Assembly (NCBI GenBank): GCA_030610855.1
Contig: JAUWQY010000003.1
Location: 1 to 64,000, forward strand
DNA length: 64,000 nt
Source of the DNA: Dehalococcoidia bacterium
GTDB taxonomy: Bacteria > Chloroflexota > Dehalococcoidia > GIF9 > AB-539-J10
Direction of reading: 5' to 3'
Position numbers and translations under genes: made by a program. The notes beneath the pieces are model-generated. The model was not told the DNA's origin. It saw only the letters and a program-made list of their open reading frames with translations, and ran no database searches. This document shows positions 10,994-34,928 of this stretch, piece after piece. The number at the start of each line of letters is the position of its first letter. Positions within the stretch are counted from its first letter, which is position 1.

Positions 10994-12283
10994 TTATTTG
11001 CTCACAATGACAATACTTTCTTCACTCATCGTATCTCCGGTAGGACCTGTCCATGCGATCATTTTCTTGGGAATATTTCTATAGTGCGTAGTCTCGTGTC
11101 TCATACCTGCCGCCTCAGCTAATTCTGTTGTGACTTTGCCCATGTCTATTAGTATCCTACTCATAGAACGATGACCAATCACTATACAAGCCTTGCTGTT
11201 AGGTCGCAATACTCTTTGCATCTCCTTCAAAGTGACGAAATAATCAGCCATGAAAGGGAGGGCCTCTGCCAGCCTTCTTTCAGAGACTTTATTCGCAGCT
11301 TCCCAAAAGGTGTTTGACGGGATTTTAGTGCTAGTAATGTTCTTTACGCTCATACCACCCAGAGACTTGATTTCGAGGGCTTTCACTTCATCTTGTGTGA
11401 AGCCTAGCCACAGCAGGAAGAGTTTACTCCAACGAATGTAAGGGATCGTGTTTCGCTCCTCCCCGTATGGAGGAGATGTGACAATCAGGTCGATTTCGCT
11501 GTCGCCAATTGGAAGCGACCGGGCGTCACCGTTCTTTACTTCAACCTTAGCTCGCTTCTTTTTTGTGTACGCTGTCAGTCTTTTTTCAATATCACCTATG
11601 TTACCCCAAAATATTGTGAAGGCATCAGGATTGTGGTCTTGTAGTTTGTATTCAGTCATTACTCTAATATACCTACTGGATTTCCAGTCAACATTCGATG
11701 ATTTCATGACGGCGTGCGCGAAAGCTATCTTGAAAATACCCTTCAACTCTTCATCGGTAACAGTCTCGACTGCTTTTCGAAGGTGAGATAGTTGAGCGAT
11801 GACGCCCGGTTTGAACCAGTGATTTAAGTTAGTGAACGCCGGAACGTACTCTTCCAATGCATTCCCATCGAAGGTCTGAAGAGAGCTTCGTAAATCTGCT
11901 TTGATGGCGTCAAAGGACGTTACATCAATAACGGCAGTCTTCGCCTTAGCCAGAAGTACCGCAAATGGATTTATATCTACGCCTATGCTGGGAATTCCTT
12001 GAAGAGATGACTCGACTAGGACGGTTCCGCTGCCGCAAAAGACATCACATATCTTGCCGGATTCGCTATCGGTCCAGTACATTGCTATGAGCCTGTGGAC
12101 TATTTGCGGTATTAATCTAGCTGGATATGGGAACAGCCCATGCGTCAAGTACTGAGTATCGGCGGTCGCAAATTCCCAGCCTACTTCGGAGTCTGGTCTT
12201 AGCAGAGCAAAACCCGGGAGCATTTGGTTGGTGCGCTCGTATTGCAAATTCTTACCTCCACCAACGACTTGGGGCGCAGACAA
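10994..12283 (-). CDS. DNA methyltransferase (amino-MTase, RM-associated)
   Basis: Motif I DVFCGSGTVLVES, GVDINPFAV, catalytic VTSPPYGEERN; stop abuts the start of the endonuclease gene. Confidence 0.9.
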   Translation of the reverse strand: MSAPQVVGGGKNLQYERTNQMLPGFALLRPDSEVGWEFATADTQYLTHGLFPYPARLIPQIVHRLIAMYWTDSESGKICDVFCGSGTVLVESSLQGIPSIGVDINPFAVLLAKAKTAVIDVTSFDAIKADLRSSLQTFDGNALEEYVPAFTNLNHWFKPGVIAQLSHLRKAVETVTDEELKGIFKIAFAHAVMKSSNVDWKSSRYIRVMTEYKLQDHNPDAFTIFWGNIGDIEKRLTAYTKKKRAKVEVKNGDARSLPIGDSEIDLIVTSPPYGEERNTIPYIRWSKLFLLWLGFTQDEVKALEIKSLGGMSVKNITSTKIPSNTFWEAANKVSERRLAEALPFMADYFVTLKEMQRVLRPNSKACIVIGHRSMSRILIDMGKVTTELAEAAGMRHETTHYRNIPKKMIAWTGPTGDTMSEESIVIVSK

Positions 12284-12653
12284 CGCCTATTGTGCGACGG
12301 GCACGCTAGTCCTATGGTAACTTGCCATAATCAAAAAGGAGTCTCTATGGTTATAGTTATGGTAATTATACATCCGATGTAAGTCATCAACAACAAATAG
12401 TCCCATTGAAGCGCGTGCTCATACAACAACATAATGGTCCGTATGATGTGCTGAATTACCACTGCACAAAACTGACTTTTGTGTAATTCACCGAATTGCC
12501 CGATAATTCAGTTTGTTGCCCCAGGGTTCGTGGATTTGTGAATAAACCAGTGAATTGGTCAATCGCAAAACTCGTGTGCTAATATCATTCTACCTGGGTC
12601 ATGAAACCAGCAACAGGAGAGAAAGATGGCATGGATTGGAGGATATTAGATTG

Positions 12654-13454
12654 ATGGAGGAGTATTTGAAAGCTAACCGGGAGTTATGGGACGAATTGAC
12701 GCCGATTCACGCCCGCTCAGAATTCTATGATGTAGAGGGATTCATGAGCGGCAGATGTGCACTGTCATCAATTGAGCTTGAAGAAGTTGGTGACGTGTCT
12801 GGCAAATCATTACTTCATCTGCAGTGCCACTTTGGGATGGGCACTCTTTCCTGGGCCAGACTGGGCGCAAAAGCTGTCGGGGTCGACTTCTCAGACAAAG
12901 CCATTGCCCTGGCCCGCTCATTGAGTCGGGAAACGGGAATAAGAGCCGAGTTCGTCTGCTCTGATGTATATGAACTACGTGATGTCCTGGATGAGAAATT
13001 CGATATTGTTTTCACTTCCGCCGGTGTCCTGTGCTGGCTTCCCGATCTGAAATGTTGGGCGGAGATAGTAAGTCATTTCCTTAGACCGGGTGGCTTCTTC
13101 TATATCTTTGATAGCCATCCCTTCGGTTTTATCTTCAATGATTCAGCTGGTGTCACCGAATTGGAGATTACACAGTCATACTTCTCGGGGCCGGAACCTA
13201 AGCACTGGGAGCCGGAAGGTGATTATGCCGACCCCAATGCTGAGGTTACTCACGGATCTTACGAATGGACTCACAGTCTGGGCAGCATTGTCAACGCACT
13301 GACTGAAGCCGGGCTCAGGATTGATTTTCTCCATGAGTTCCCGGTGCTGTTCTTCTGCGGCTATCCTTTTATGGAACAGGATAAAGATGGGTGGTGGCGG
13401 TTGAGAGGCGACAAGGTGCCCCTTACCTTTTCCGTCAAAGCTTCCAGATTGTAA
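12654..13454 (+). CDS. Class I SAM-dependent methyltransferase
   Basis: LLHLQCHFGMGTLSWARLGAKAVGVDFSDKAI; start chosen at MEEYLKANRELWDEL. Confidence 0.8.
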   Translation: MEEYLKANRELWDELTPIHARSEFYDVEGFMSGRCALSSIELEEVGDVSGKSLLHLQCHFGMGTLSWARLGAKAVGVDFSDKAIALARSLSRETGIRAEFVCSDVYELRDVLDEKFDIVFTSAGVLCWLPDLKCWAEIVSHFLRPGGFFYIFDSHPFGFIFNDSAGVTELEITQSYFSGPEPKHWEPEGDYADPNAEVTHGSYEWTHSLGSIVNALTEAGLRIDFLHEFPVLFFCGYPFMEQDKDGWWRLRGDKVPLTFSVKASRL

Positions 13455-13577
13455 GAGACCTACCTGCGTAGGGCATTGCCAAAAGGGGTCATCGTTAAGC
13501 CAGCCTTATTGCACCTTTTAGCGTTTTGTGACTCATTTAGTCTTCAAATATGGGGACATCACATGAAAAGTCGTCCG

Positions 13578-13605
13578 TTGACAATAGCCTCAATAATGAT
13601 ATAAT
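13578..13605 (+). promoter_or_regulatory. Sigma-70-like promoter TTGACA-N16-TATAAT
   Basis: Exact -35 and -10 hexamers upstream of the surface-protein gene. Confidence 0.7.
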
Positions 13606-13731
13606 AGCAGAGGGATATTGTGGAGTTGATGGTCGGATGTTGGCGTTAGGTGACTGTTCTAATCTCTCTCAAGCTCATTTCATATTACACTTTTGGAAGA
13701 ACCGAACTACCATAGAATGAGGAGGAAAGAT

Positions 13732-16700
13732 ATGGGAAATCGCGCGACCCACGGAATTGTTGCAGCTATTATTACTTTGAGCATACTTGTATCGATGATT
13801 GCGGTGCCATCGGGTATCGCACAAGCCGCCAGTCCCAATATATCATACGGTGACCGTGTGGCTGTTACCTGGTACGGGGATGGAGTTGCAGTCCGAGACT
13901 GCGCATCAACATCTTGTGACCCACCGGTCTGGGAGATGCCTGCAGGTTTCGAGGGTGAGGTAAAAGGTGGCCCGCAGTACAACGGAGGTTATAAATGGTG
14001 GTATATAGAATGGGTTAATAACAAGGTAGGGTGGACAGCCGAAGCCTCGTTAGGCGGTATTGCCTACCTTCAGCCTTTGCCCGGAGGTGGTAAATATCCG
14101 AATGTAACAAACAATGGTCTAAGTTATCGCGTACGTGTTTACGATGATATTGGCACAACCGGTCTTTGTGTTCGAACGGGGGCTGGTCTGGGGTACTACT
14201 GCGATCCTGCGAAGAAGAAGTATCCTGGTAGCAAAGGATGGACGACAGCCGGACCAGTCGTTTCACAATCGGAGGAGTTGGTTTGGTGGTACATCGAGTG
14301 GGACAACAGCGATAAGGGCTGGAGTGCCGACTCACGTGCTTATATAGAAGCAGGGGTGTACCTTGTGAAGGAAGGTTCAACTCCTCTTCCTTCCGCTGGA
14401 GATGTTTCCGTCACAACCTATTCAGCAACTAGTATCGGTCAGACTCAAGCTACTCTGCGCGGCGCGATCACCGACTTCAACAACAACTCCGCAGGCTATA
14501 TCAGATTTGGATATAGACCTAGTGGCGGTTCATGGTCCTATACTTCGTGGGTGTACCGAACTACCACTACTGCTTACTCGCAAACAGTCTACGGTCTTAG
14601 CCCTAACACCAATTACGAGTTCTACGCTCAGGCATACGGAGCCGAGGACACCACGATAGATACAGGTGATACCCTCACCTTCCATACGGCCTCAACTCCT
14701 AGCGAATTACTCCCACCGACCAATCCTCGCCCTGGCGAAACTACTAGTCCTGGGCCGGTTCTCGATAGCAGTACGGTCACCTTGCAGTGGGATGCCTCTG
14801 TCGGAGCTACTCGTTACGCGCTTGGGGTGGTTAACTGCAATACGGGCATATTGGAGGTTGACACATGGGTCGACGGTATCTCTTATCCTGTTACCCTCCA
14901 ACCAAATACACCCTACCGATGGAACGTGGCAGCCTGGAATGATGCCGGTTATTCCTCGTTCACTGCTCTCCGGTATTTTCAGACACCGTCGGGCGGAGTC
15001 GATCTAGTTCAACTGATACAAGAGCTAACAATTGACAGTATTAGCGTAATCGTTGATGAACAGTCTTTTCGCATTCTCACTTTAGAGCATAAAATTGACG
15101 TAAGTACTAAGGAAGTTATACCAGGTTCCGGATTGACCAAAGTGTACGTGGATGCAAATGGGGAACTTGTATCTAATGTAGAAATCGCTAGAAAAATTGG
15201 GCAAATAGATCTTGCCCGCGAGGAAAGTCCAAGTCTCATGGAAACCCTGGAAACACTAGAAGCCCTGAAGCTACACAAAGCAAACCTAGAAAGCCTCGAC
15301 AATCGACTAAACAATGCCTTTACAACGATTAAGGTTGTGAAAAGTGTGGACGACGCATTGAATGCAGCCCTGCAGATCATTGATATACAAATGGAGATAG
15401 TATCGGTGCAGATAGATGTTTTTGTACTAACAGGGGAAAGTTCGGAGGCGATCAGTATCTTGGGTGATGTGAAACTCGAACTAGCGTCATATCGAGAAAC
15501 CATAATTGGCCTGGATAAAGCTACACTTACAGTAAAAGCAGTTCAAGCTTTTGTGCCGAAGGCCATTGCGTTTATATTCCGTCTCGTCTTCCACCCAATG
15601 GAGAATGTTAAGAACGATTTGAGTAATGAACTGAACAGTGCCATTGATTCCTATAAGGAAGCTCGAGATGTATTGGCGATGAGCGAAGGAGAGATAGCAA
15701 CTTATGCAGATGCTCATTCGTTTCGTCACGGCTACTTGTATGGGAAGCCCCATGCAGATAATGCGTTGTTCCTCGCTCGTATGATTTTTGGAAACTATGA
15801 TAAGGCACTGATCGGACTCGGAGTGGATTTGCTCTTATCGGCGGTAACTGGGGGAGCGTGGGCGTTGAAGGAAATAACTGTCCCTGTACAGGAAGCAGCT
15901 AATGACTTGAAGTGGACAATGAACATTTGTTACGAGGCAGTGCTGGGACGGGGACTCGCCGCATGCAAATTGGCATACGAGCTATCCGCTAGTGCTCTGT
16001 ATACTATGAGGTTAGGTGGTAACGGGGCCCAAACTAATGATCTTATAAAAAAGGCATCCGCATGTGAAACAGAGGCGCGCAATTCGGCACAAACGGTATA
16101 TGACGCTGTAGTGGATTACTTCGGGCCAATCAACACAATCCTTGATTTTTGGGATTGGCTGGTTTCTGGCATCGAGGAATTCTGGAGTTATGTGATACAC
16201 AGTCCTGGAGAACTGCAGATCTATAATGATGAGGGTCTAGTAACTGGTCTAGTGAATGGGGAGGTCAGGCAGGAGATTCCAAATGCCTTGTACGATGCTG
16301 TGAGCAACGGTATTGTACTTTTCTCTCATTCTGAACCCGATTCATATCGATGCTGTGTAGTAGGAACCGCAGAAGGCAGGTATGGGTTGGGGATTGAATG
16401 GGATGATCTAGGAGAGGTGTCGGGTTTCGCAGTAGTTGACGTCGAAACATGGCCAACTGCGGTGCACAATTATACCATTGACTGGGATACACTAGCTAAA
16501 GGTGAGTCTGGGATTACGATTGAGAAGGATTACGACGGCGATGGGGAAGTGGATGAGATCATTATCACGGGCATTCCGGAAACACCAACCTACCCTTCAC
16601 CGCTACCAAATTCTGCAAATGTCCCTCCAGACAAAGTATTGAGCTGGACCGGGGACGACTCTGACTCTGTTACTTACAACATCTACTTGGGCAACAATGC

Positions 16701-17208
16701 TACTAGTTTACAGTTGGTCTCCGAGAGGCAGGTAGAAAAGGCTTATGTTCCTATGTTGGAGCCCAATACTACATATTACTGGCGTGTGGCAGCAATCAAT
16801 GAACATAACATATGTAGCACAGGCTCGGTCTGGGTGTTTGCTACAGGTGAATCAGGACTTCCTTTTCCATGTTTCATCGCCACGGCAGCCTATGGGACAC
16901 CCATGGAAGAGGAGGTACAGGTTCTCCGCGAGTTTAGGGACACGTACCTAGCGGTCAATCCAATAGGACGGGCTCTAACAGACATTTACTACAGGGTTAG
17001 CCCGCCAATGGCCAAGTTCATTATTGAGCATCCCAGCCTGAAACCGATAGTGCGAACCGGCCTGCTGCCCGCTGTGGCTATGAGCACTGTGATTGTGAAT
17101 ACTACCGTGGCTGAGAAGATTGCCATATTGGGATTGTTTACATTGGCCGCAGTGGCGGTGGCTATATTGGTAACAAGACGACGACATAGAGGCTCGCAGT
17201 GTAGCTGA
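13732..17208 (+). CDS. Large secreted protein with SH3-like and fibronectin-III-like repeats and CFI-box C-terminal domain
   Basis: Signal peptide after MGNRATHG; two SH3-like repeats; FNIII-like stretches; CFIATAAYGTPMEEEVQVLREFRD and C-terminal TM followed by RRRHR. Confidence 0.75.
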   Translation: MGNRATHGIVAAIITLSILVSMIAVPSGIAQAASPNISYGDRVAVTWYGDGVAVRDCASTSCDPPVWEMPAGFEGEVKGGPQYNGGYKWWYIEWVNNKVGWTAEASLGGIAYLQPLPGGGKYPNVTNNGLSYRVRVYDDIGTTGLCVRTGAGLGYYCDPAKKKYPGSKGWTTAGPVVSQSEELVWWYIEWDNSDKGWSADSRAYIEAGVYLVKEGSTPLPSAGDVSVTTYSATSIGQTQATLRGAITDFNNNSAGYIRFGYRPSGGSWSYTSWVYRTTTTAYSQTVYGLSPNTNYEFYAQAYGAEDTTIDTGDTLTFHTASTPSELLPPTNPRPGETTSPGPVLDSSTVTLQWDASVGATRYALGVVNCNTGILEVDTWVDGISYPVTLQPNTPYRWNVAAWNDAGYSSFTALRYFQTPSGGVDLVQLIQELTIDSISVIVDEQSFRILTLEHKIDVSTKEVIPGSGLTKVYVDANGELVSNVEIARKIGQIDLAREESPSLMETLETLEALKLHKANLESLDNRLNNAFTTIKVVKSVDDALNAALQIIDIQMEIVSVQIDVFVLTGESSEAISILGDVKLELASYRETIIGLDKATLTVKAVQAFVPKAIAFIFRLVFHPMENVKNDLSNELNSAIDSYKEARDVLAMSEGEIATYADAHSFRHGYLYGKPHADNALFLARMIFGNYDKALIGLGVDLLLSAVTGGAWALKEITVPVQEAANDLKWTMNICYEAVLGRGLAACKLAYELSASALYTMRLGGNGAQTNDLIKKASACETEARNSAQTVYDAVVDYFGPINTILDFWDWLVSGIEEFWSYVIHSPGELQIYNDEGLVTGLVNGEVRQEIPNALYDAVSNGIVLFSHSEPDSYRCCVVGTAEGRYGLGIEWDDLGEVSGFAVVDVETWPTAVHNYTIDWDTLAKGESGITIEKDYDGDGEVDEIIITGIPETPTYPSPLPNSANVPPDKVLSWTGDDSDSVTYNIYLGNNATSLQLVSERQVEKAYVPMLEPNTTYYWRVAAINEHNICSTGSVWVFATGESGLPFPCFIATAAYGTPMEEEVQVLREFRDTYLAVNPIGRALTDIYYRVSPPMAKFIIEHPSLKPIVRTGLLPAVAMSTVIVNTTVAEKIAILGLFTLAAVAVAILVTRRRHRGSQCS

Positions 17209-17249
17209 TTATTGATTGGTGACTAGCCACCTGTTAAAGGAGGTACAGC

Positions 17250-18737
17250 ATGAAGCCAATGCTTAAATTGAGGAAGCGTCGGTATTTGGCACCAGTTAGT
17301 ATCTTTCTTATTGTCACAGCCTTAGTTGCCGGGTTTGCAGGATGTGGAGACCGTGGTATCGTCGAGTATACACTGACTATCGCCAGTACTTCTGGAGGGT
17401 CAGTGACTTTACCTGGAGAAGGGATTTTTGTCTGTGATGAGGGAACAATAGCCAGTCTGGTGGCCGAGGCTGAGGCAGGCTACCACTTCGTCAATTGGAC
17501 TGGGGATGTGGACACCATCGCCAATGTCAACTCCGCGGCAACCACAATCATCATAAATGACAACTGTTCTATCACGGCTAATTTCGCGGGCTCAGCATCG
17601 GTTCAATATGACCTCACGGTTACCAGTACTTCTGGAGGATCCGTAGTCTTCCCTGGGGAAGGGACTTTCCCCTGTGACGAGGGAGAGGTGGTCCCTTTGT
17701 TTGCTGAGGCCGCGGAAGGCTTCTACTTTGTCAACTGGACTGGCGATGTGAGTGCCATTACCGATATCAATTCCGCCACAACCACGATCACCATGTATGA
17801 AGACTATTCCATCATGGCCAATTTTGCGGGGGCACCGTTGGTTCAGTATGAACTCACCATCTCCAGTACCTCCGGTGGGTCGGTTGTTGCACCTGGAGAA
17901 GGAACCTATATCCGCGACGAGGGAACAGCGGTCAGTCTATTGGCGGAGGCCGAGGAAGACTACCGCTTTGTGAGTTGGACGGGCGATGTGGCTACCGTTG
18001 GCGACGTCAATACAGCTTCAACAAGCATCACTATGAACGACCATTACTCGATAAGTGCGAACTTTGAGGAAGATGAAGTACACTTCCCCGATCCCAACCT
18101 TGAGGCAGTGATCAGGAATGCGATCAGCAAGCCCACAGATCCCATCTATCCCTCAGACCTTGAGGGGCTCGCTTCGCTCGATGCTCAAGGTAGGGATATA
18201 GTTGACCTCAACGGACTCGAGCACTGCATCAATCTGGTATGGGTGGCCTTATCGAACAATCAAATAACCGACCTATCGCCACTTGCCAACCTTCCCCACG
18301 TGTATTTTCTTGCGCTTACGCAGAACCAGATAAGCAATATGGCACCACTGACCAACCTAATCAGCCTAACAACATTGTGGATTGGTTGGAATCTGATATC
18401 GGTCATCCCACCCCTAGACGACCTCACCAACCTGACAGATCTGCACCTTTACGGGAACCAGATCGACGATATCTTGCCCCTGGCGAGCCTCACCAAGCTA
18501 GAAGACCTCGCGCTTGACTATAACCAGATAAGCAATATCTTACCCCTGGCGAGCCTCACCGGCCTAGAACACCTCTCGCTTGACTCTAACCAAATAAGCG
18601 ATATCTCGCCGCTGGTGGATAACACCGGACTGGGAGAAGGAGATTACCTTTTTTTGCAGTCGAATCCTTTGACTTCAGATTCCATCAACGTTTACATACC
18701 GGAACTTGAGGCGAGAGGCGTGACTGTCTATTACTAG
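17250..18737 (+). CDS. Lipoprotein with three InlB/Listeria-Bacteroides-type repeats and leucine-rich repeats
   Basis: Lipobox LVAGFAGC; three copies of YxLTIxSTSGGSVxxPGEG...NWTGDV...ITANF; LRR LTNLTDLHLYGNQIDDILPLASL. Confidence 0.8.
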   Translation: MKPMLKLRKRRYLAPVSIFLIVTALVAGFAGCGDRGIVEYTLTIASTSGGSVTLPGEGIFVCDEGTIASLVAEAEAGYHFVNWTGDVDTIANVNSAATTIIINDNCSITANFAGSASVQYDLTVTSTSGGSVVFPGEGTFPCDEGEVVPLFAEAAEGFYFVNWTGDVSAITDINSATTTITMYEDYSIMANFAGAPLVQYELTISSTSGGSVVAPGEGTYIRDEGTAVSLLAEAEEDYRFVSWTGDVATVGDVNTASTSITMNDHYSISANFEEDEVHFPDPNLEAVIRNAISKPTDPIYPSDLEGLASLDAQGRDIVDLNGLEHCINLVWVALSNNQITDLSPLANLPHVYFLALTQNQISNMAPLTNLISLTTLWIGWNLISVIPPLDDLTNLTDLHLYGNQIDDILPLASLTKLEDLALDYNQISNILPLASLTGLEHLSLDSNQISDISPLVDNTGLGEGDYLFLQSNPLTSDSINVYIPELEARGVTVYY

Positions 18738-18949
18738 GATCGGGGCGTTACGAGCCGGGCCGGCGAGTGCGTAGCCGGACGGCACGGAGAACGTAACCTG
18801 CCTGATGGAAAATACCGCACGACGATGCTGTGCCTGAGAAGGGAGTGGGATCTCTCAGGGGGGGCGGTTATTTCCGGGATAATTCCCTGCAGCAAAATAG
18901 CGTTTTGTGACTTCTTAACCCTATGGTATGCCTTGGACACCGCACCATA

Positions 18950-18977
18950 TTGATAATTCCTCCACCACTGATATAAT
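18950..18977 (+). promoter_or_regulatory. Sigma-70-like promoter TTGATA-N16-TATAAT
   Basis: Hexamers with 16-bp spacer just upstream of the RCC1 lipoprotein gene. Confidence 0.65.
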
Positions 18978-18998
18978 CATTCTACAAGGCTCACACAG

Positions 18999-21116
18999 AT
19001 GAAAAGAGTAAGTATGATTCTGATTGTGGCAGTCTTGATTGCAGGGATAGTGGGCTGTGTTGATACTTATTATGACCTCACCATCTCGAGCACCGAGGGT
19101 GGCTCTGTAACCACGCCTGGTGAGGATACTTTCACCTATGATGAAGGAACAGTGGTTGACTTGGTGGCAACTCCGGCTGCAGGCTATCGGTTTGACGAGT
19201 GGACCGGCGACGTGGACACTATTGATAATGTCCATGCTGCTTTAACCAATATCGCCATGAATGGCGACTACTCTATCACCGCCGAGTTTGTCAAGCAGTA
19301 TAACCTCTCCATCAACAGCACAGCGGGAGGTAATGTAACCACACCCGGAGAGGGAGTGCTTACCTATGACGAGGGAACGGTGGTCGACCTGGTGGCTGAG
19401 GCTGAGGAAGGTTATTATTTCGTCGAGTGGACTGGCGATGTGGACACCTTCGGCAATATCACTGCCACTATAACCACCATCACTATGGACGGCGACCATA
19501 CTATCACCGCAAACTTTGAAGAATATACACCCATGGTCACTGTAGGCGGTTGGCACATAGTAGGGCTCAAGACTAACGGCACTGTGGTCGCCGTGGGAGA
19601 AAACTACTATGGTCAGTGCAATGTCGGTGACTGGACGAACATCGTCCAGGTCTCCACAGGCTGGCTGCACACGGTGGGGGTTAGGTCCGACGGCACCGCG
19701 GTGGCCACGGGAGACAATGGATACGGGAAGTGTGATGTTGACGGCTGGACGGACATCATCCAGGTTGCCGGAGGCCGGCATTACACGGTGGGACTTAAGT
19801 GCGACGGCACCGTAGTCGCCGTGGGACGGAACATCTTCGGGCAATGTGATGTTGGCAACTGGACGGATATCATCCAGGTCTCCGCAGGCTTGGGGCACAC
19901 GGTGGGACTTAAGTCCGATGGTACTGTGGTCGCCGTGGGAGACAACGAGTACGGCCAGTGTGATGTCGGTGGCTGGACAGATGTCGTCCAGGTCTCAGCA
20001 GGCAGGCTGCATACGGTCGGGCTTAAGGAGAACGGCACCGTGGTCGCCGTGGGACGCAACGGCTACGGGCAATGTGATGTCAGTGGCTGGACGGACATCA
20101 TCCAGGTTTCCGCAGGTGAGTGGCATACTGTGGGACTCAAATCTGATGGCATCGTTCTCGCCTTGGGTTACAACCCTGAGGGCGAGCTCGAAGTTGAAAA
20201 CTGGACGGACATCGTCCAAGTCGCGGCAGGCAGCTATCTCACGGTTGGCCTTAAGTCTGACGGTACTGTGGTTGCTACGGGGCAGTACTTCCGCGGGCAG
20301 TGTGATGTCAGCGGCTGGGCAGATATCTCCCAGGTGGATGCGAACGGCAGGCACACTGTTGGGCTTAAGTCCGATGGAACAGTGGTAGCCGTGGGAAGTA
20401 ACGATCTGGGGCAGTGTGATGTGGGCAACTGGACGGATATCATCCAGGTCGTCGCAGGTAGCCATCACACGGTGGGGCTTAGGTCCGATGGCACCGTAGT
20501 TGCTATGGGGAACAACCAAAATGGTCAATGCAATGTTGGTAACTGGACAGAGACCGTTCAGGTCGCTGGAGGAGGCTGTTACACGGTGGGTCTCAAGTCT
20601 GACGGCACTGTGGTCGGCGTGGGTGCCAGCGGGGATGGCCAGCTCGAAGTTCAAGACTGGACAGACGTTATCCAGGTCGCCGCAGGCGACATGCACACTA
20701 TGGGGCTTAAATCCGATGGCAGAGTGGTCGCTGTAGGACGGAATGAGTACGGCCAGTGTGATGTCGGTGGCTGGACAGATGTCGTCCAGGTCACCGCAGG
20801 CATCTATCACACCCTGGGGCTTAGGTCTGATGGCACAGTGGTCACCGCGGGAGACAACGAGTACGGCCAGTGTGATGTCGGTGGCTGGACAGATGTCGTC
20901 CAGGTCTCCACAGGCTACTATCACACGGTGGGGCTTAAGAACGACGGCACCACGGTGGCCGTGGGATGGAACGACTGGGGCCAGTGCAATGTCGACGGTT
21001 GGACTAACATCGTCCAGGTCGCGGCAAACTGGCAACACACGGTGGGCCGTAAGTCCGATGGGACCATGGTGGCCGCGGGCCCAGAGGTTCAGCTTGCCAA
21101 ATGGGATTTGTTCTAG
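18999..21116 (+). CDS. Lipoprotein with two InlB-type repeats and about 14 RCC1-like repeats
   Basis: GIVGC lipobox; repeated IQVSAGxxHTVGLKSDGTVVAVGxNxYGQCDVGGWTD, 38-aa period. Confidence 0.85.
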   Translation: MKRVSMILIVAVLIAGIVGCVDTYYDLTISSTEGGSVTTPGEDTFTYDEGTVVDLVATPAAGYRFDEWTGDVDTIDNVHAALTNIAMNGDYSITAEFVKQYNLSINSTAGGNVTTPGEGVLTYDEGTVVDLVAEAEEGYYFVEWTGDVDTFGNITATITTITMDGDHTITANFEEYTPMVTVGGWHIVGLKTNGTVVAVGENYYGQCNVGDWTNIVQVSTGWLHTVGVRSDGTAVATGDNGYGKCDVDGWTDIIQVAGGRHYTVGLKCDGTVVAVGRNIFGQCDVGNWTDIIQVSAGLGHTVGLKSDGTVVAVGDNEYGQCDVGGWTDVVQVSAGRLHTVGLKENGTVVAVGRNGYGQCDVSGWTDIIQVSAGEWHTVGLKSDGIVLALGYNPEGELEVENWTDIVQVAAGSYLTVGLKSDGTVVATGQYFRGQCDVSGWADISQVDANGRHTVGLKSDGTVVAVGSNDLGQCDVGNWTDIIQVVAGSHHTVGLRSDGTVVAMGNNQNGQCNVGNWTETVQVAGGGCYTVGLKSDGTVVGVGASGDGQLEVQDWTDVIQVAAGDMHTMGLKSDGRVVAVGRNEYGQCDVGGWTDVVQVTAGIYHTLGLRSDGTVVTAGDNEYGQCDVGGWTDVVQVSTGYYHTVGLKNDGTTVAVGWNDWGQCNVDGWTNIVQVAANWQHTVGRKSDGTMVAAGPEVQLAKWDLF
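19540..21070 (+). repeat. Tandem coding repeat, about 114-bp period (RCC1-like units)
   Basis: Recurring gtggggcttaagtccgatggcac...tgtgatgtcggtggctggac. Confidence 0.85.
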
Positions 21117-24849: not shown

Positions 24850-25899
24850 CTACCATTCCACGTTCACTGGCATAATGACGTGAATGGTCCCGTTTTGCTT
24901 GACGACTCCTGGAGATTGGGCGTTCTTTGTCCGCAGTGTTACCGGTCCGCTTGTCCTGGCCAGCACGTCTTTGATGTAGTTGCCATCGAAGGCCATCTTG
25001 GCCTTGCCCATGGCCGGCACCGGCACCGTGATTTCGCTCTTCTCATCGGCTTTGGCAGAGACGATGAGATTCGCCTGTTTGGTCTGGAACCGCACGATGT
25101 TTCTGCTGGGCTTGGTGGCCATGACCACCTTCAAGGCGTCCTTTAAGGCCGCGCTGTCCACAGTGAGGGGCTTTCCGTTCTTGGGGATCACGTGCTTGTA
25201 GTTCGGATAGGTCCCCTCAATTAGCCGTGCCGTGAGCACCAGCCCTTCACCGACAAAGCTGATATGATGCTCGCCTTTATGAAGTGATACTTTGCCGGGC
25301 ATGAGCCTCTCGATGAGCTTTATCGCCTTGCCAGGAACGATAGTCTGCTCCGACTGCCCCTTTGCCTTGACTGTCGTTTCCGCCAGTCGGAAGCCGTCGG
25401 CGGCAGCCAGCGCTATTCTGCCCTTGTCAGGAGTGAAGCAGACGCCAGTCAGGACAGGTCTGCACTCCTCTTTCGCCATAGCATAACTAATTTGCTTCAT
25501 GGCGCTTGCCAGACCTGTGATCTCGACCGCTTTCCCCTTCACCCCCGGCACCACCGGGAAGTCCTGGGATTCCTGGCATTCAATTGTGATCGCGGCTCCA
25601 GCTTCCACCTTCAGTGAGTTTGCGCCCACCAAAGATAGGCTGACTGTTTCCGTCTTCACTGCCCGGAGTAAGATTTCCAGGTCCCGAGGCGGGACGCAGA
25701 CCGCTCCCTGCCGTGTGATATTGGCCTTGCAGCTCCCTGTTACCGCGACTTCCAGGTCAGTGCCAGTGAGCGTGACTTGCCCACCGGCCGCCCGGATGAG
25801 GACAGACGTGCACACCGGCAGAAGATGCTTCCCCGGCACTGCGGACTTGACCTTGCCCAAGGTCTCCAGGAGTGCCATACGCTGTGTCGTCGCTCGCAT
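24850..25899 (-). CDS. dnaN: DNA polymerase III beta sliding clamp
   Basis: Full-length clamp-like: VLTGVCFTPDKGRIALAAADGFRLAETTV, IEGTYPNYKHVIP, C-terminal VIMPV. Confidence 0.9.
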   Translation of the reverse strand: MRATTQRMALLETLGKVKSAVPGKHLLPVCTSVLIRAAGGQVTLTGTDLEVAVTGSCKANITRQGAVCVPPRDLEILLRAVKTETVSLSLVGANSLKVEAGAAITIECQESQDFPVVPGVKGKAVEITGLASAMKQISYAMAKEECRPVLTGVCFTPDKGRIALAAADGFRLAETTVKAKGQSEQTIVPGKAIKLIERLMPGKVSLHKGEHHISFVGEGLVLTARLIEGTYPNYKHVIPKNGKPLTVDSAALKDALKVVMATKPSRNIVRFQTKQANLIVSAKADEKSEITVPVPAMGKAKMAFDGNYIKDVLARTSGPVTLRTKNAQSPGVVKQNGTIHVIMPVNVEW

Positions 25900-26468: not shown

Positions 26469-26783
26469 TTATTTTGCCAATTCGCGCACGCAGGCCTTCA
26501 TCTTCTTGACCTGCTGCCGCGTGTATCCAGGACAAAACTTGTCCAGGTTGATCGTAGTCCTGACCGGCAATTTGTCAGGACTACGACCCGATAGCTCCGG
26601 TTTGAGCGTGCCGCCGCCGTTCTTGTGGAAGGCCACCACTGCCCCCTGGTATGTAACATACCGAAAGGGCCGTGGCTTTTGCTTGCGGCGTCTTGCAGCC
26701 TCGAGCTGGGCGTTACAATTACCGCAATAGCCCTTCTCCCTCGCGGGACGACGCTCGCAAATGAGGCATTTCCTCGTCTGCAT
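26469..26783 (-). CDS. Zinc-ribbon-containing small protein
   Basis: CLICERRPAREKGYCGNCNAQ; gggggtgatgt RBS before ATG. Confidence 0.6.
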   Translation of the reverse strand: MQTRKCLICERRPAREKGYCGNCNAQLEAARRRKQKPRPFRYVTYQGAVVAFHKNGGGTLKPELSGRSPDKLPVRTTINLDKFCPGYTRQQVKKMKACVRELAK

Positions 26784-26807
26784 ACATCACCCCCTTGTTC
26801 AGTTCCT

Positions 26808-27590
26808 TGGGGCTTTTGGCCCCATCGCTGGCCGCTAACAAGCCAAAGCCGGCTAGCGGCCAGTACATGGAATCAAAAACATAACTCCCCCGACCACGAA
26901 AGCCGGGGGGCTGAGCCTCGCGCCATTCTCCCTGTGACAGTCCACCCGTCCACCACGTCACGGTAGTTCCACCTGGGACTTTTGCAGGCGGATAGACTCT
27001 CATGGCCGGTAAGGGCCTTGGGGGCTTGCTATACTGCCCCTGCTGACGGCCGAACACACGCCCCGCTTACCCCACGGAGCCTCTACCAAGTAAGGACGTG
27101 GGAAAGGCGTATGCCGGCTGATGCCAGCCGCGCCCTGTGCTCTTGGAGCTAGGGGGAGATACCCCACAGCCGTACCATGAGCTGCAACCACCGTGCCAGC
27201 AGTCCACCTTTGACGTAGGCGCACTATGGCAATTGCACCCCGGTCCTTTTACGTCAGGCGGGACGGCAACCGATTCGCTCGTCGCACGCTAGGCTGATTT
27301 AGGCCAGCCGGTCCCCGTAGCTTAACCTCGCACCACGGCTAGGGCCAGGACTCGACCTTATCCCGGGAGCTGCGTTTGGAATACCCTATGCCTGGCGGTC
27401 AGACCGCAGGCATCCCGGTGTGCTCTATGTTAAGCTATTGGCTCAGGTGCCCGCGTCCCCCACCTCTAACTTAGAGGTCAGCCCCGAAAGCCCCGAGTGT
27501 GGGCACGGGTTAGGATTCCTCGGCCGCTCATAGAGTATGGGCCGTTGCAATAGCAAAGGCGACGGGCCCGAAGGCCCGCCGCCCCCACAG
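26808..27590 (-). ncRNA. Candidate large structured non-coding RNA of the mobile element
   Basis: About 780 nt without convincing coding capacity, with many perfect hairpins: cUUCGg-capped stem 27558-27583; acctcta/tagaggt 27462-27478; atgcctg-cggt-ctg-accg-caggcat 27388-27413; ggctg/cagcc 27292-27309 and 27116-27129; tgacgta/tacgtca 27211-27256; tggccgcta/tagcggcca 26829-26862; tggggc/gcccca 26808-26824. Confidence 0.6.
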
Positions 27591-27600
27591 ATCGCTCAAT

Positions 27601-27640
27601 AAAGCTAATCCGACATGTAGCGGTTTTTGTTACATTAGCT
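27601..27640 (-). promoter_or_regulatory. Conserved motif copy 2 (ctacatgtcggattagcttt) with agctaat/attagct dyad, just 5' of the candidate RNA
   Basis: Shared with 28309-28328 (19/20) and, as 12-bp core aaagctaatccg, with 23039-23050. Confidence 0.55.
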
Positions 27641-27661
27641 ATGCTTTGGCTTTGAGCGGTG

Positions 27662-28282
27662 TTAGTTGATCAGTAGCTTATATCCCTCAGCTTTGACCCA
27701 GCGGCTAAGCCGCTGCCGCTCTGTGTTGCCCAGGCTTTGCGTTTGCTTAGGCCTGCCGCCTTTGGCGTTGCGCGGCGCTCCGAGCGGTTTGCCTTGCAGG
27801 CGCTTCAATACCAGGCCCTGAATATCCTTCGGGATTTGCTGCCATAGCCGCCGCGCATCGAGTCTGTCAATCATTTTAGCTTCAAACTCTACTTCGCCAA
27901 CTAGCAATTCAGCCAGTTCTACCTCTTCTCCGTCGCTGTTTGTTATAACTTCGGATAGATAACCCTGGTGGAATTGACTGTGCAGCTTGTACTTCGCCCA
28001 CCAGTTCTGCCAGTCACGCCGCGCTATGGTGTAGGCGAAGGCCGGATCTTCAGTACCGGCGGCCAGGATTGCTGTCATGAGTTCCTGGAACATATCCTGG
28101 CGCTCATTAGCCGGCACTTTGCGGCTGAAGATATATGCCGCTTCGACTGCCAGCCTGGCATTCAGTCCCAGGCCCTCGAGTGATTGCCGCGTTTGCTTCA
28201 CAAGCTCAATATAATCATCATCAACGGCAAAATTAGGCCCCAGGAATGCTTTGCTCACTCTGTGGTATGTAGTATTTAACAT
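27662..28282 (-). CDS. Hypothetical regulator/sigma-like protein
   Basis: 206 aa; C-terminal RLQGKPLGAPRNAKGGRPKQTQSLGNTERQRLSRW resembles a DNA-binding tail; flanked by the inverted 20-bp motif. Confidence 0.5.
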   Translation of the reverse strand: MLNTTYHRVSKAFLGPNFAVDDDYIELVKQTRQSLEGLGLNARLAVEAAYIFSRKVPANERQDMFQELMTAILAAGTEDPAFAYTIARRDWQNWWAKYKLHSQFHQGYLSEVITNSDGEEVELAELLVGEVEFEAKMIDRLDARRLWQQIPKDIQGLVLKRLQGKPLGAPRNAKGGRPKQTQSLGNTERQRLSRWVKAEGYKLLIN

Positions 28283-28590: not shown

Positions 28591-29223
28591 TTACTCGACT
28601 TCTATGACTTTGACTCTGTGTTGTGGTTTGTTCAATTCTGTAATCTCCAGCAGCTTCTCCTTGGACACAGGTAAACGCAGCTTTCCTGCACGAACGTCAC
28701 CGACTAGCCCGTCAATCAAGAGAGAGAATGCGTCTTCACTGAAAAGGAGATAGTCATTTTCCCGTAGTTTGCTCATAATCTCGGACTGTGGTCGACGTGA
28801 TTCACGGGCTAACTGAGATACAGAGATGCCCCTGACATCGTCAGGCAGCCCCCTGGGGCCGATACATACCATGACCAGCCCTAAAGGTTGTTGTTTATCA
28901 GTGGGACCCTGGAGTAGACAATCTGTGATAGCTGACAGCCTGCCTTTGGAAACTATCGCTGTCACAGCCAATTCAACCAGGGACAACATCAGCTTCGCCT
29001 CCCCGTGACCACGACTGGCTGAAGCCTCAATCTCTCTCAACTGCTGCAACTGCTCCACAATAGTACGGTATACTGCTCTCAGACTTGACGCTTCATCCTC
29101 TCGCTTCAGCCGGGTCTCTTCTCGGGCAAATAGTGCGTCCAGAGCGAGACCCGTTTCGGTCAGGTTGTTCGCCTTGGACGGCAAATCCTCCAGGCGGCTA
29201 TGAAATGGTTTCAGATCTCCCAT
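28591..29223 (-). CDS. Hypothetical protein, operon with HTH/coiled-coil gene
   Basis: 210-aa ORF overlapping the upstream gene by 13 nt. Confidence 0.5.
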   Translation of the reverse strand: MGDLKPFHSRLEDLPSKANNLTETGLALDALFAREETRLKREDEASSLRAVYRTIVEQLQQLREIEASASRGHGEAKLMLSLVELAVTAIVSKGRLSAITDCLLQGPTDKQQPLGLVMVCIGPRGLPDDVRGISVSQLARESRRPQSEIMSKLRENDYLLFSEDAFSLLIDGLVGDVRAGKLRLPVSKEKLLEITELNKPQHRVKVIEVE

Positions 29224-30578
29224 GCTTCTAAATCGTTGATCAGCCTCTCAGCGGTAAGCGACAGTCCTGTGTATTGCAGAGAGTAGCTATGTTGGCGTTT
29301 CAGCCAGATGCCGAGGCCTCGAACAACTGGTAAGACGAGGGTCTTGACCCGGTTGCCTGCGATATCTTCCTCGCCTCTTATTAAAGCTGGCAAGTCGTTG
29401 AGCCATTCGCTAACCTGAAGAATCCCCTGGCATCGCCCGACCTCACTGCCCACTTCAAGGGCTTGGTCCCTGAGCCGCCTTATCTCCGCCAGAGCCTCCT
29501 CGTTTCCGCGTCGCAGTTCCTCGCCGAAGTTATCGATTGCCTCCTGAGCGATAGGGATGATCATGGCGATCTCTTGGCTCACGTTCTCCCTAGTTTCCTT
29601 AATGCTGGCCTCCAGATTCATCTTCTCCTGTTTGAGGCTGTCAATAACTGCCCCGGTGGCCTCTATCTCACTCTTGCTCCTGGCAATAGCTTGCTTCATC
29701 CTATCCATCTCCTGCTGTCGGCTCTGGATTAGCGTTTCGAAGGTCAGCCCTTTCTCGAGACTCCCAAGCTCGTGCAGTAACCGGCTCCTGAGTTCGGAGG
29801 ACTTGATAGCGTGATGCTGGGCAATCGCTTGTAGCTTTTCCTGAAACTCACTCAATTCCTTGAGGGTGAACCCTATATCCTCAAGCTTCTGCGTCTCGCG
29901 CTTCAGAGCGGAGAGGGTTGTTTCCGCCTTCTGGGCCTTGGGCTCCATGTTAGCAATCCGGCGTGACAGTGTGCGTTCACGTCTCTCCAGGTCCTTGACC
30001 CGAGGGGTTAGCAGTTTGCTCTTCTGTTCGAGCATGGCTACTGAGCTGGCCAGTTCCTCTCTCTGCCTGGTTAGGTCGGCGAGCTGCTTTTGGCAGTGCT
30101 TCACTTTGTTTGACATAGGTTCCAGGTCGGTGGCTTTCTTCTCCAGTTCGCGAACTTTGTTATCGAGAGCCTCGAGGCTCAAGCCGCTCCTCTGCTGGAC
30201 CTGCTGAATACTGTAGACCAGTTGGACGAACTCCCTGGCATCGTCCTCGTCTGGCACCGACTTAAGAATCATCGGCCAGCGGTCGATGTCGGCCGGCTCG
30301 AGCCCGAGTTCGTTGATTCGATTCAGAAGGATGAGCCCCGTAGCGCACTGCCCGGGAGTTAGTTTTGACCGTTTCAGGTCGAAGGACAACTCCCGAAGCG
30401 TTTCGATGTGTTCACCGATATCGGCCGCCTCGGGAAAGCTTCCTGCCTTCAACTCAGCGACGACGTTGGCCACTGTCCCTTTACTGATACTGCCTCTGGC
30501 GGCAATATCATCATAGGACAGGCCGGACAGGTAAAGCCTGACAATGGTGAGTTTCTTTTTCGCTGTTAACTTCTCCAT
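29211..30578 (-). CDS. HTH plus long coiled-coil protein
   Basis: N-terminal HTH LYLSGLSYDDIAARGSISKGTVANVV then heptad-rich coiled coil; RBS aaggag before MEKLTAKKK. Confidence 0.65.
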   Translation of the reverse strand: MEKLTAKKKLTIVRLYLSGLSYDDIAARGSISKGTVANVVAELKAGSFPEAADIGEHIETLRELSFDLKRSKLTPGQCATGLILLNRINELGLEPADIDRWPMILKSVPDEDDAREFVQLVYSIQQVQQRSGLSLEALDNKVRELEKKATDLEPMSNKVKHCQKQLADLTRQREELASSVAMLEQKSKLLTPRVKDLERRERTLSRRIANMEPKAQKAETTLSALKRETQKLEDIGFTLKELSEFQEKLQAIAQHHAIKSSELRSRLLHELGSLEKGLTFETLIQSRQQEMDRMKQAIARSKSEIEATGAVIDSLKQEKMNLEASIKETRENVSQEIAMIIPIAQEAIDNFGEELRRGNEEALAEIRRLRDQALEVGSEVGRCQGILQVSEWLNDLPALIRGEEDIAGNRVKTLVLPVVRGLGIWLKRQHSYSLQYTGLSLTAERLINDLEAWEI

Positions 30579-30775
30579 TCTCACTCTCCTTTTATAGGTG
30601 ATTCTTGCACCCACAAATCCTGGATATTTGAACTTGATTTGAACGACGCGAACAGCACTTGAACGGAGTCCTGAACATTATTTGAACGCAAACTGAACAC
30701 GAGATCCTCCTCTGATTCTCCTTGTATTTCATCAGTCAGAAACTGTTTCCGGCTCCGCGTCCCGTCGACCGGATT

Positions 30776-31315: not shown

Positions 31316-32002
31316 TCAATCTTCCTTGCTCCAGAGTTTCTGATACCATTCTTGATGTTCTGTGCCTGATATCTTTCGATACCGGGCTGTAGTGTTGAAG
31401 CTTTGGTGGCCTAAATGCTCCTGAAGAAGCCGCAGCCCGTCGCCTGAATCATCAAGTTTTACTGCATGGACTGCGAAGGCATCGCGCAATCGGTGCGGGC
31501 TGACGTTATGAACTCTTCCGGTCTCAGGATTCACAAGCTTTGGTAGACCTGCTCTTTCAGCACAGGTACGGACTATCTGCCAACCTCGATGCCGGTTTAT
31601 TCCGAAGATAAACAACTTACCGTCTCTGGATACCGGGCCGTCGCGTCCGATGTACTCCTTCAGCATGCCCAAAGTACCACTGTCTACCGGCAGCACCCTC
31701 TGCCGACGACGTTCCTGTTCCTCAGCCTGAGCCTTGTCAATCATGCTCCCGCACTTGGGGCAAAATGCGTGGCTTCTGCCCAGTCTCTGTCCACACTCGC
31801 TACACGATAGTTTTAGGCGAGCTTTGAGGTGTTTGATTGTGACTATGTCATGTTCAAAGTCCACATCTTCAACAGTCAAAGCTAGAGCCTCACTGATTCG
31901 GCAACCAAGATGGAATAACACGCGGATCAACAGCCTATCCCTCACAGTGGTGGCTGCCCTCTCCATCAGAGTTACCTCGTGTGGTTCAACGTAGGCTTTC
32001 AT
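31316..32002 (-). CDS. Tyrosine recombinase catalytic domain with inserted zinc ribbon
   Basis: HLGCRISEALALTVEDVD, HRLRDAFAVH, LLQEHLGHQSFNTTARY; inserted CSECGQRLGRSHAFCPKCG; no N-terminal core-binding domain. Confidence 0.8.
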   Translation of the reverse strand: MKAYVEPHEVTLMERAATTVRDRLLIRVLFHLGCRISEALALTVEDVDFEHDIVTIKHLKARLKLSCSECGQRLGRSHAFCPKCGSMIDKAQAEEQERRRQRVLPVDSGTLGMLKEYIGRDGPVSRDGKLFIFGINRHRGWQIVRTCAERAGLPKLVNPETGRVHNVSPHRLRDAFAVHAVKLDDSGDGLRLLQEHLGHQSFNTTARYRKISGTEHQEWYQKLWSKED

Positions 32003-32616: not shown

Positions 32617-33573
32617 ATGCCAACTAAGGGTCTACGGGCTTGGATTGGGGATGATGAGGAACTTCAAATTTGTCGTTACACACTTGAGTTTCGTGATATG
32701 CGGCGCACCAAGCTAGCAGAGAAGATACGGGCCGAAGTGCATTGGCCGGGCAAGCGTCCCGAAATCGAGGTGTTGGAGCGCAAAATTTCACATTACCGGA
32801 AACACGCTGTTGATCATCCTGAAGACAAGCCCTGGAGCATGGCTAGTCTAGACAGATACCCAATCTCTCCGCAGGCAATCCCGCCTGTGCTTGCGTGTTG
32901 GAAGAACGCTGTCCAAAGCGGTACCATCCTAACCATACGGGAAGCCAAATGGGCGTCGAGGCTCTACGCGCTCATGGCGGACGAAGTACACCAGAGCTTT
33001 ATCTGGCATCATGGTGCCAAGTGGCTGGAGCTAGACACGTCGTGTAACAATGCAATCGTGAAGAAATCCTCTGCTCGGCAATCATCTAGGCGTAATAAAG
33101 AGACGGCCAGCGAGTTTTCACTACGGGCCGAAGAAGGTGATCATGGAGCAATAGAATGCCCGAAATGTCGGACACCAATAGGAATAGGCCCCACAACTCG
33201 AACGGCCATATGTCTCGGCTGTGAAGGTCAGTTCGACATCGTTAGGATTCCAGCAGGGACCGAAGACCCAGGCACTCTTCGTAAAGAAACCTCCGTAGTG
33301 AAGACTATCCCGCCAATTATTGAAGGTGTTAGCTCCCTGACTTACTGCGCGAAAGGCTATGCGAACCTGGAGTTGATATATGACCTGATAGGTCAGCCTT
33401 TTGATTCAACATGTATGGATAGGCGAATTATGGGATTGGGCAGGTTGATACCTGACCTCAATGACGAGGCTTCGCTTTTGCCATATCTGGCAATGGCCAT
33501 TCAAGACTTCAAAGACTTTAGAGACAAAGTGAGGAGGCTAACCAATGAGAGGTCACATAAAAAAAAGAGGTAA
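32617..33573 (+). CDS. Hypothetical protein with zinc-ribbon-like motif
   Basis: IECPKCRTPIGIGPTTRTAICLGCEGQFDI; overlaps the integrase start by 29 nt. Confidence 0.6.
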   Translation: MPTKGLRAWIGDDEELQICRYTLEFRDMRRTKLAEKIRAEVHWPGKRPEIEVLERKISHYRKHAVDHPEDKPWSMASLDRYPISPQAIPPVLACWKNAVQSGTILTIREAKWASRLYALMADEVHQSFIWHHGAKWLELDTSCNNAIVKKSSARQSSRRNKETASEFSLRAEEGDHGAIECPKCRTPIGIGPTTRTAICLGCEGQFDIVRIPAGTEDPGTLRKETSVVKTIPPIIEGVSSLTYCAKGYANLELIYDLIGQPFDSTCMDRRIMGLGRLIPDLNDEASLLPYLAMAIQDFKDFRDKVRRLTNERSHKKKR

Positions 33574-34696
33574 GAACAGCTATTCCATCGTGGTCAGCTT
33601 GGGTAAGGATGCTACTACCGGCAAATACAAATACCAGTGGGTAAGCGTCAAGGGAACTAAAAAGGACGCCGAAAAGCGGCTTAGCGAGTTGCTGCACCAG
33701 CTCGATCACGGGGCTTTTATTAGGCCCGGTAGAACAACACTGAGGGAATACCTAGAGAAATGGCTCTCAGAGTACGTGAAACCCAACCTGTCACCGCGAG
33801 GCTTTGAAAGGTATCAAGGCATTGTCATACATTATTTTATCCCTGAAATGGGGAATATTATCCTGACGCAGCTAAAACCGGAGCACATTCAGAAGCACTA
33901 TATCTCCATGTTCAATAAGGGCCTCACCGCCGGAACGGTTCGCTATCACCATGCTGTGATTCACAAGGCATTACAGACGGCTATCAAGTGGGGACTGTTA
34001 AACCATAACGCAGTTGAGGGTGCGGACGTACCCCACTCCCGTCAAAATGAGATGCAGACATGGGATGAATATGAAGTCAACCGCTTCTTGGAGACTACCA
34101 GGGGTAGTCATTACTATGCTCTATTCCACACGGCACTATTCACCGGGATGCGACGGTCTGAATTGCTAGCATTGCAGTGGCGAGACATAGACCTCCATCA
34201 AATTCACGTTAACCGCTCACTTCACCAGCTAAGGGATGGTAGCTACGTGTTTACACCGCCGAAATCAGCCAAAAGTAGACGTACCGTAGCCCTCTCCCCT
34301 TCATCCGTTCTTACGCTAACAGAGCATAAAGAAAAGCAACAGGGAATGCGAGGCATGTTAGGGACACGGCTAAAGAACGATGACTTGGTCTTCAGCACAC
34401 CGGATGGCAAGCCATTACGTCCTAACACGGTCACCCGTGCGTGGGCTACGTTGGCAGCTAAAGCAGGTGTCAAACCTATTCGCTTGCATGATGCACGCCA
34501 CAGCCACGCCTCTTTGATGCTCAAGCAGGGGGTACACCCCAAGATAGTCCAAGAGAGGCTAGGCCATTCCAGTATTCAGATCACCCTTGATACTTACAGT
34601 CACGTAGCCCCTGGACTTCAGCAGGCAGCAGCGGAGAGCTTTGATAGACTGCTTAACAGCAAGAGTGAAGACCTGACTGTTGAAAATCATTATTAG
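33545..34696 (+). CDS. Phage-type tyrosine integrase
   Basis: AP2-like N-term MRGHIKKRGKNSYSIVVSLGKD; catalytic GMRRSELLALQWRDID, HDARHSHASLML, RLGHSSIQITLDTYSHV. Confidence 0.95.
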   Translation: MRGHIKKRGKNSYSIVVSLGKDATTGKYKYQWVSVKGTKKDAEKRLSELLHQLDHGAFIRPGRTTLREYLEKWLSEYVKPNLSPRGFERYQGIVIHYFIPEMGNIILTQLKPEHIQKHYISMFNKGLTAGTVRYHHAVIHKALQTAIKWGLLNHNAVEGADVPHSRQNEMQTWDEYEVNRFLETTRGSHYYALFHTALFTGMRRSELLALQWRDIDLHQIHVNRSLHQLRDGSYVFTPPKSAKSRRTVALSPSSVLTLTEHKEKQQGMRGMLGTRLKNDDLVFSTPDGKPLRPNTVTRAWATLAAKAGVKPIRLHDARHSHASLMLKQGVHPKIVQERLGHSSIQITLDTYSHVAPGLQQAAAESFDRLLNSKSEDLTVENHY

Positions 34697-34725
34697 CATA
34701 TTATTAGCAAAACGACAAGAATAAG

Positions 34726-34761
34726 CCCCCTGTTCACAGAATTTAGCTTCAAAACAGGGGG
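34726..34761. terminator. Hairpin ccccctgtt...aacaggggg downstream of integrase
   Basis: 9-bp perfect inverted repeat. Confidence 0.65.
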
Positions 34762-34773
34762 TGGCCTTATCAT

Positions 34774-34850
34774 TGGTAGCGCATACCGGATTCGAACCGG
34801 TGATCTCCTCCTTGAGAGGGAGGTGTCCTAGGCCTCTAGACGAATGCGCC
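34774..34850 (-). tRNA. tRNA-Glu (CTC), CCA encoded
   Basis: Cloverleaf ggcgcat...atgcgct-a-cca, loop ctCTCaa, T-arm ggttcgaatcc. Confidence 0.93.
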
Positions 34851-34857
34851 GCACTAG

Positions 34858-34928
34858 CTGGGGATCCAGGATTCGAACCTGGCCTAACTGATCCAGAGTC
34901 AGTCGTCCTACCGCTAGACTAATCCCCA
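34858..34928 (-). tRNA. tRNA-Gln (CTG), CCA not encoded
   Basis: Acceptor tggggat/atcccca, loop ctCTGga, T-arm ggttcgaatcc. Confidence 0.92.

Follow-up and report, generated by a model that had tools for sequence, protein, structure and literature searches.

The RNA locus and its neighbouring genes

The RNA locus described here is part of an integrated mobile element of an uncultured Chloroflexota bacterium and lies in a stretch of 64,000 nt, called the window in the following. Two minus-strand genes, A and B, are separated by an interval (26,784–27,661) that has no annotated protein and no protein family match. A conserved reading frame was not found; the longest open stretches vary in frame and place among homologues. 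This agrees with the first-pass annotation, which had seen no convincing protein here. What the interval contains is a large non-coding RNA on the minus strand, inside 26,800–27,613. The fold z-score, the homologues at the same locus and RNAalifold support a structured RNA of ~720 nt at about 26,875–27,597, where we inferred both ends, the 5′ end from a promoter-like motif and the 3′ end from a terminator-like hairpin. The minus strand folds with −410 kcal/mol (z −5.8, 20 shuffles), compared to a z of −2.6 for the plus strand (20 shuffles).

Gene A (27,662–28,282, minus strand, 206 aa) is located directly upstream of the RNA and likely encodes an ECF-type sigma factor, as suggested by weak but concordant matches of its sequence and its structural model (pLDDT 62). 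Foldseek places sigma factors on top, with overall E values of 0.02–0.18: the top six PDB matches are all sigma factors, although weak (E 0.18 and worse), and the top named matches in BFVD include phage sigma factors (probabilities 0.95, 0.91 and 0.60). NCBIfam sigma models match weakly (E 0.02–0.07), hhalign gives an E value of 0.045 over a short alignment of 27 columns, and Pfam gives no sigma match. Gene B (26,469–26,783, minus strand, 104 aa) is directly downstream of the RNA in all lineages and, according to the alignment, encodes a Zn ribbon and a small beta domain. The model of this protein (pLDDT 80) has no fold match in the PDB; we regard it as a candidate partner of the RNA. The same module contains a DnaN-like sliding clamp (24,850–25,899, minus strand; Pfam/PHROGs), which is also found in G330, a genome from another family of the same class, and on an IMG/VR contig. 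In all lineages, the replication module encodes both a DnaN-like clamp and an AAA+ protein.

Several further genes were observed in the window. A tyrosine recombinase with an embedded Zn ribbon (31,316–32,002, minus strand) occurs in all bacterial elements (59% in G330). A 467-aa protein with an HTH/Sigma70_r4-like start and a long coiled coil (29,211–30,614, minus strand) has no homologue in the related elements by tblastn. At 33,545–34,928, an integrase adjoins two tRNA genes (Gln and Glu), which are likely the attachment site; the window contains no direct repeat of a tRNA end that would mark the left end of the element. Left of the element, large fn3, LRR and RCC1-repeat proteins are encoded on the plus strand (13,693–21,116).

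Homologues and conservation

By BLAST, the RNA sequence was also found in two genomes of the same genus, G038 (81%) and G042 (73%). Over the RNA body, the identity to the window is 83.3% for G038 and 78.9% for G042, and genes A, B and DnaN are below this value with 61–73% nucleotide identity to the same two genomes. G330 was found through a distant relative of gene A (E 7.5e-38) and has a divergent non-coding region of ~950 nt with the same core motifs between genes A and B. Searching IMG/VR with a gapped pattern built on the shared core gave 18 matches, including the contigs L028 and L043; the others were judged to be chance matches from their gene context. With a second pattern, L028 and L043 were detected again and nothing else. 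These two contigs are 99.8% identical to each other over the RNA and ~54% identical to the window, with ~50% for G330. The order gene A–RNA–gene B is kept in the window, G038, G042, G330 and L043/L028. The comparison includes five distinct sequences that are effectively three deep lineages, and a firm alignment across all of them covers only a core of 181 positions.

IMG/VR lists both contigs as viral. They contain genes for an integrase, a methyltransferase, a helicase, a Ku-like protein and a ligase; no virion hallmark gene was found on contig G781 (L043). Downstream of the RNA, L043 has DnaN-like, AAA+ and phrog_1362-like genes, and a Ku-like protein and an ATP-dependent DNA ligase are encoded between its gene B and its DnaN-like clamp (11,605–13,812).

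Phage and plasmid collections had no match at the DNA level. Gene A and DnaN likewise had none in IMG/VR or the phage and plasmid records, where gene B had a single short and weak match (L004). The exact RNA hairpin pattern had no match in IMG/VR, and a pattern scan of genome contigs returned only two same-genus records that were already known. The best weak class-level DNA match (L015) was rejected as a chance terminator hairpin. When a sample of the phylum, which may not include G330, was searched with the core model and strict filters, only the window genome and G042 were found.

Conserved core and covariation

All lineages share a core domain (model R1; 26,998–27,182, minus strand), which consists of a closing helix, a long arm, a GGGGC hairpin and the invariant segments ACGGCTGTG, CAAGAGYAC and AGCAAGCC..TWACCGAC. 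Over the 181 aligned positions with 40 pairs, 94.5% of the cells are paired. At 19 of the 40 pairs both sides have changed in a compensatory manner, compared to a mean of 8.1 in shuffled data, and 0 of 500 shuffles was as high. Slid controls of the structure have 1–4 pairs with compensatory double changes; this control flatters the structure because it was drawn by hand from the alignment and tested on the same sequences. We regard the shuffles and the double changes as the stronger points in support of the core.

The closing helix (27,181–27,175 with 27,005–26,999, and CGG at 27,172–27,170 with CCG at 27,009–27,007) has double changes at five pairs and no broken pair, reading CTCATGG/CCATGAG in the window, CGCATAG/CTATGCG in G330 and ACCGCAG/CTGCGGT in L043. 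Helix 2 (27,136–27,132 with 27,016–27,012) is 100% paired, with AGGGC/GCCCT, AGAGC/GCTCT (G042) and ACAGC/GCTGT (L043). The GGGGC/GCCCC hairpin with its conserved GTAGCAA-type loop (27,021–27,040) is likewise 100% paired; its stem varies between GGGGC/GCCCC, GGGGT/ACCCC and GAGGC/GCCTT. In the long arm (27,042–27,128; pairings 27,128–27,123/27,047–27,042, 27,110–27,106/27,062–27,058, 27,102–27,097/27,076–27,071 and 27,095–27,093/27,082–27,080), compensatory changes occur at every level, and the middle helix is the weakest with 76% of cells paired. All these helices are on the minus strand.

For the three same-genus sequences, RNAalifold predicts 244 pairs, 29 of them with double compensatory changes; in the alignment including G330, such changes affect 43 of 168 pairs. 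On the minus strand, the consensus fold of the three sequences reaches a z of −16, compared to −10 for the plus strand, based on 12 column shuffles that do not keep dinucleotides. Over the whole RNA, 32 of 263 pairs are double-changed among these three sequences (shuffled mean 13.4, maximum 20). The cells of the minus-strand fold contain 137 G-U compared to 7 A-C combinations, and those of the best plus-strand fold 72 compared to 24. The excess of G-U over A-C on the minus strand indicates that this strand is the RNA. The minus-strand sense proposed in the first-pass annotation is supported by wobble polarity, fold z-scores and the minus-strand flanking genes.

The individual stems that had been noted before differ in their conservation. 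The 9-bp stem tggccgcta/tagcggcca forms a covarying 3′ hairpin (26,828–26,863, minus strand) that precedes the ribosome-binding site of gene B; it is kept in the same-genus and G330 copies, with TA, CG, GC and AT at one pair. From the long-range pairing tgacgta/tacgtca only the centre is kept, with both ends lost in the two same-genus homologues, and the two-part stem atgcctg-cggt-...-accg-caggcat is broken in homologues. In place of the latter, the same-genus homologues retain an overlapping pairing (CTGCG/CGCAG inside CCGGGA/TCCCGG), which shows compensatory changes. The 5′ hairpin (27,558–27,583, minus strand) is present at the same place in homologues, and its C(UUCG)G tetraloop occurs in the window only; at the matching position, G330 has a perfect hairpin followed by TTTTT, and the 5′ hairpin is possibly the terminator of gene A. 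A hairpin with a CCTAAAT loop (27,292–27,309, minus strand) is common to all lineages (GGCTGgCCTAAATCAGCC in the window, GCAGCCCTAAATCTGC in G330, CTGACCTAAATCAG in L043). Near the 3′ end, a terminator scan, a type of scan that yields about as many hairpins by chance as are called, detected a terminator-like hairpin (26,887–26,910, minus strand) followed by GTTATGTTTTT (26,885–26,875). Its stem and U-run are kept in G038 and are weaker in G042 and G330. The U-run is absent from the L043 copy; the RNA could therefore belong to the gene B mRNA there.

Promoter-like motif

Upstream of the RNA lies an element-specific promoter-like motif (27,604–27,634, minus strand) with TGTAAC and TCGGATTAGC at a distance of 21 nt from start to start. 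Across the elements, we aligned 11 occurrences of this bipartite motif (TGTAAC-like and TCGGAWTAGC-like, 21–22 nt apart from start to start), which precedes the RNA and other element operons. In genome-wide scans with the pattern AACRA-N13-15-TCGGAWTNGC, matches were located in the element in three of three cases for G330 and four of five for G038. The window genome (G000) has a single match, at the RNA, and G042 has none to the exact pattern; the reversed-pattern control gave 0 matches. The motif is also found before other element genes (window 23,051–23,038, minus strand; L009 15,791 and 14,151; L012 2,972; L024 3,024), which suggests that the sigma-like factor of the element controls a small regulon. 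It could also be an operator for a repressor. In G038 and G330, two copies of the motif flank the 5′ hairpin (L009 18,690–18,577 and L024 5,859–5,741, both minus strand). The window-type motif was not found on the L043 contig; a different bipartite motif, TATGTCAAC-N-CTCAGCGATYAGT, is repeated there, once upstream of the RNA and once elsewhere (8,600 and 14,397, plus strand).

Relation to known RNA families

The first-pass annotation had proposed either a known class of giant RNA or a new one, and had suggested a cmscan search. With Rfam 15 (4,227 families), there was no match at gathering scores, and permissive settings gave chance-level matches only, i.e. no credible match to any family. Even with permissive filters and E≤10, the GOLLD and ROOL covariance models match none of the three copies searched (window, G330 and L043), and those of OLE and HEARO match neither at gathering nor at permissive settings. 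Group I and group II introns, RNase P and tmRNA gave no Rfam match, and ARAGORN found no tmRNA. Two apparent resemblances were rejected: a similarity to RNase P (AAGAGCRCA...GCGCGGCTGG) has no support from cmscan, and strong low-threshold matches at the 3′ end of L043 are plastid 3′UTR hairpin models on both strands of a long hairpin, which we take as chance.

GOLLD and ROOL are often located near tRNA islands. No tRNA island was found in the regions scanned (the window and the homologue loci): the window has two host tRNAs ~7 kb from the RNA, beside the integrase, and the homologue loci have a single tRNA or none. The phage or prophage setting is shared, as the RNA is found in an integrated element with integrases and on IMG/VR contigs. 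Many GOLLD members are >800 nt, prophage- or phage-encoded and have an extensive covarying fold, whereas ROOL is a phage- or prophage-encoded ornate RNA of ~660 nt; the function of both is still unknown (PMC12286853). The new RNA resembles GOLLD in size, phage or mobile-element setting and ornate covarying fold, and ROOL in size, phage or prophage setting and ornate fold; it differs from both in the missing covariance-model match and tRNA island, and from GOLLD also in its gene neighbourhood. ARRPOF is likewise a large RNA, and its name ties it to mobile-element replication (PMC12641628); however, hosts and genes differ, and there is no match in Rfam 15, which may or may not include an ARRPOF model. 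OLE is a highly structured RNA of ~600 nt linked to partner proteins (PMC12054373). The new RNA is likewise large and highly structured, but does not match the OLE model, and OLE is known mostly from Gram-positive extremophiles and anaerobes (Bacillota), not from Chloroflexota elements. Because the sequence and structure tests for the known classes fail, we file the RNA as a new class among the large ornate RNAs that phages and mobile elements encode; with the Rfam models excluded, covariation, gene order and wobble polarity point in the same direction.

Interpretation of the RNA and alternative explanations

The RNA has a conserved position and a conserved fold with compensatory changes, its polarity is that of the minus strand, and no protein is conserved. 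Both checks on homologues that had been proposed at the outset were run, and covariation was found while a conserved protein frame was not. We conclude, with a probability of roughly two in three, that the product of the interval is a structured RNA of about 700 nt that stands alone, acts in trans and belongs to a new class. Taken separately, the assignment to a new class is highly probable, and for a role as a trans-acting scaffold we see an even chance.

The most serious alternative, which we nevertheless consider unlikely, is that the RNA regulates gene B in cis, as the very long structured leader of its mRNA. The RNA is always directly upstream of gene B, its end hairpins adjoin a strong ribosome-binding site (AAGGGGGTGA), and the L043 copy has no U-run terminator. 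However, its size and complexity are far above those of usual leaders, its core has a closing helix of its own at a distance of ~200 nt from gene B, and in the window and G038 the terminator-like hairpin with its U-run lies before gene B. Less probable still is a replication element, i.e. an origin, a primer RNA or, as has been proposed for ARRPOF, a structured region for replication. The location inside the module with the DnaN-like clamp and the AAA+ protein in all lineages would fit, but wobble polarity shows that a single-stranded RNA of one sense is under selection, iterons and initiator binding sites were not identified, and no Rfam family matches.

We give very little credit to the idea that the RNA is a very divergent GOLLD or ROOL, or belongs to some other known family of large RNAs. 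It is of similar size, has an ornate fold and likewise lies in a mobile element, and GOLLD and ROOL are prophage and phage RNAs (PMC12286853), yet even permissive model searches (E≤10) of the window, G330 and L043 copies and the scan for tRNA islands speak against it. Many stems arise by chance in GC-rich DNA, and the plus strand likewise folds below its shuffles; nevertheless, a chance structure or a degraded coding sequence is refuted by the covariation at 19 of 40 core pairs and has a negligible probability, as the RNA is also better conserved than the flanking genes and homologues have no reading frame in common.

For the preferred reading of a stand-alone RNA, we propose the following mechanism. 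The sigma-like factor of the upstream gene A would direct transcription of the RNA from an ECF-type promoter specific to the element, and the transcript would end or be cut at the 3′ hairpins. It might then accumulate as a stable scaffold, either as RNA alone or in an RNP whose protein is perhaps the Zn-ribbon product of the downstream gene B, and perhaps as a homo-oligomer, the assembly form of GOLLD, ROOL and OLE. As its module also encodes a DnaN-like clamp and an AAA+ protein, the RNA may serve the early or replication stage of the element. More tentatively, the giant RNA might be a dedicated product of an alternative sigma factor encoded by the element, forming an RNA assembly or an RNP with the Zn-ribbon protein and acting in phage or element DNA replication or in host takeover.

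To our knowledge, very few classes of giant ornate RNAs are known from bacteria and phages. The new class comes with a conserved neighbourhood of a sigma-like factor, a Zn-ribbon protein, a sliding clamp and an AAA+ protein. Together with the element-specific promoter-like motif, this neighbourhood leads to testable hypotheses on the timing, the binding partners and the role of the RNA.
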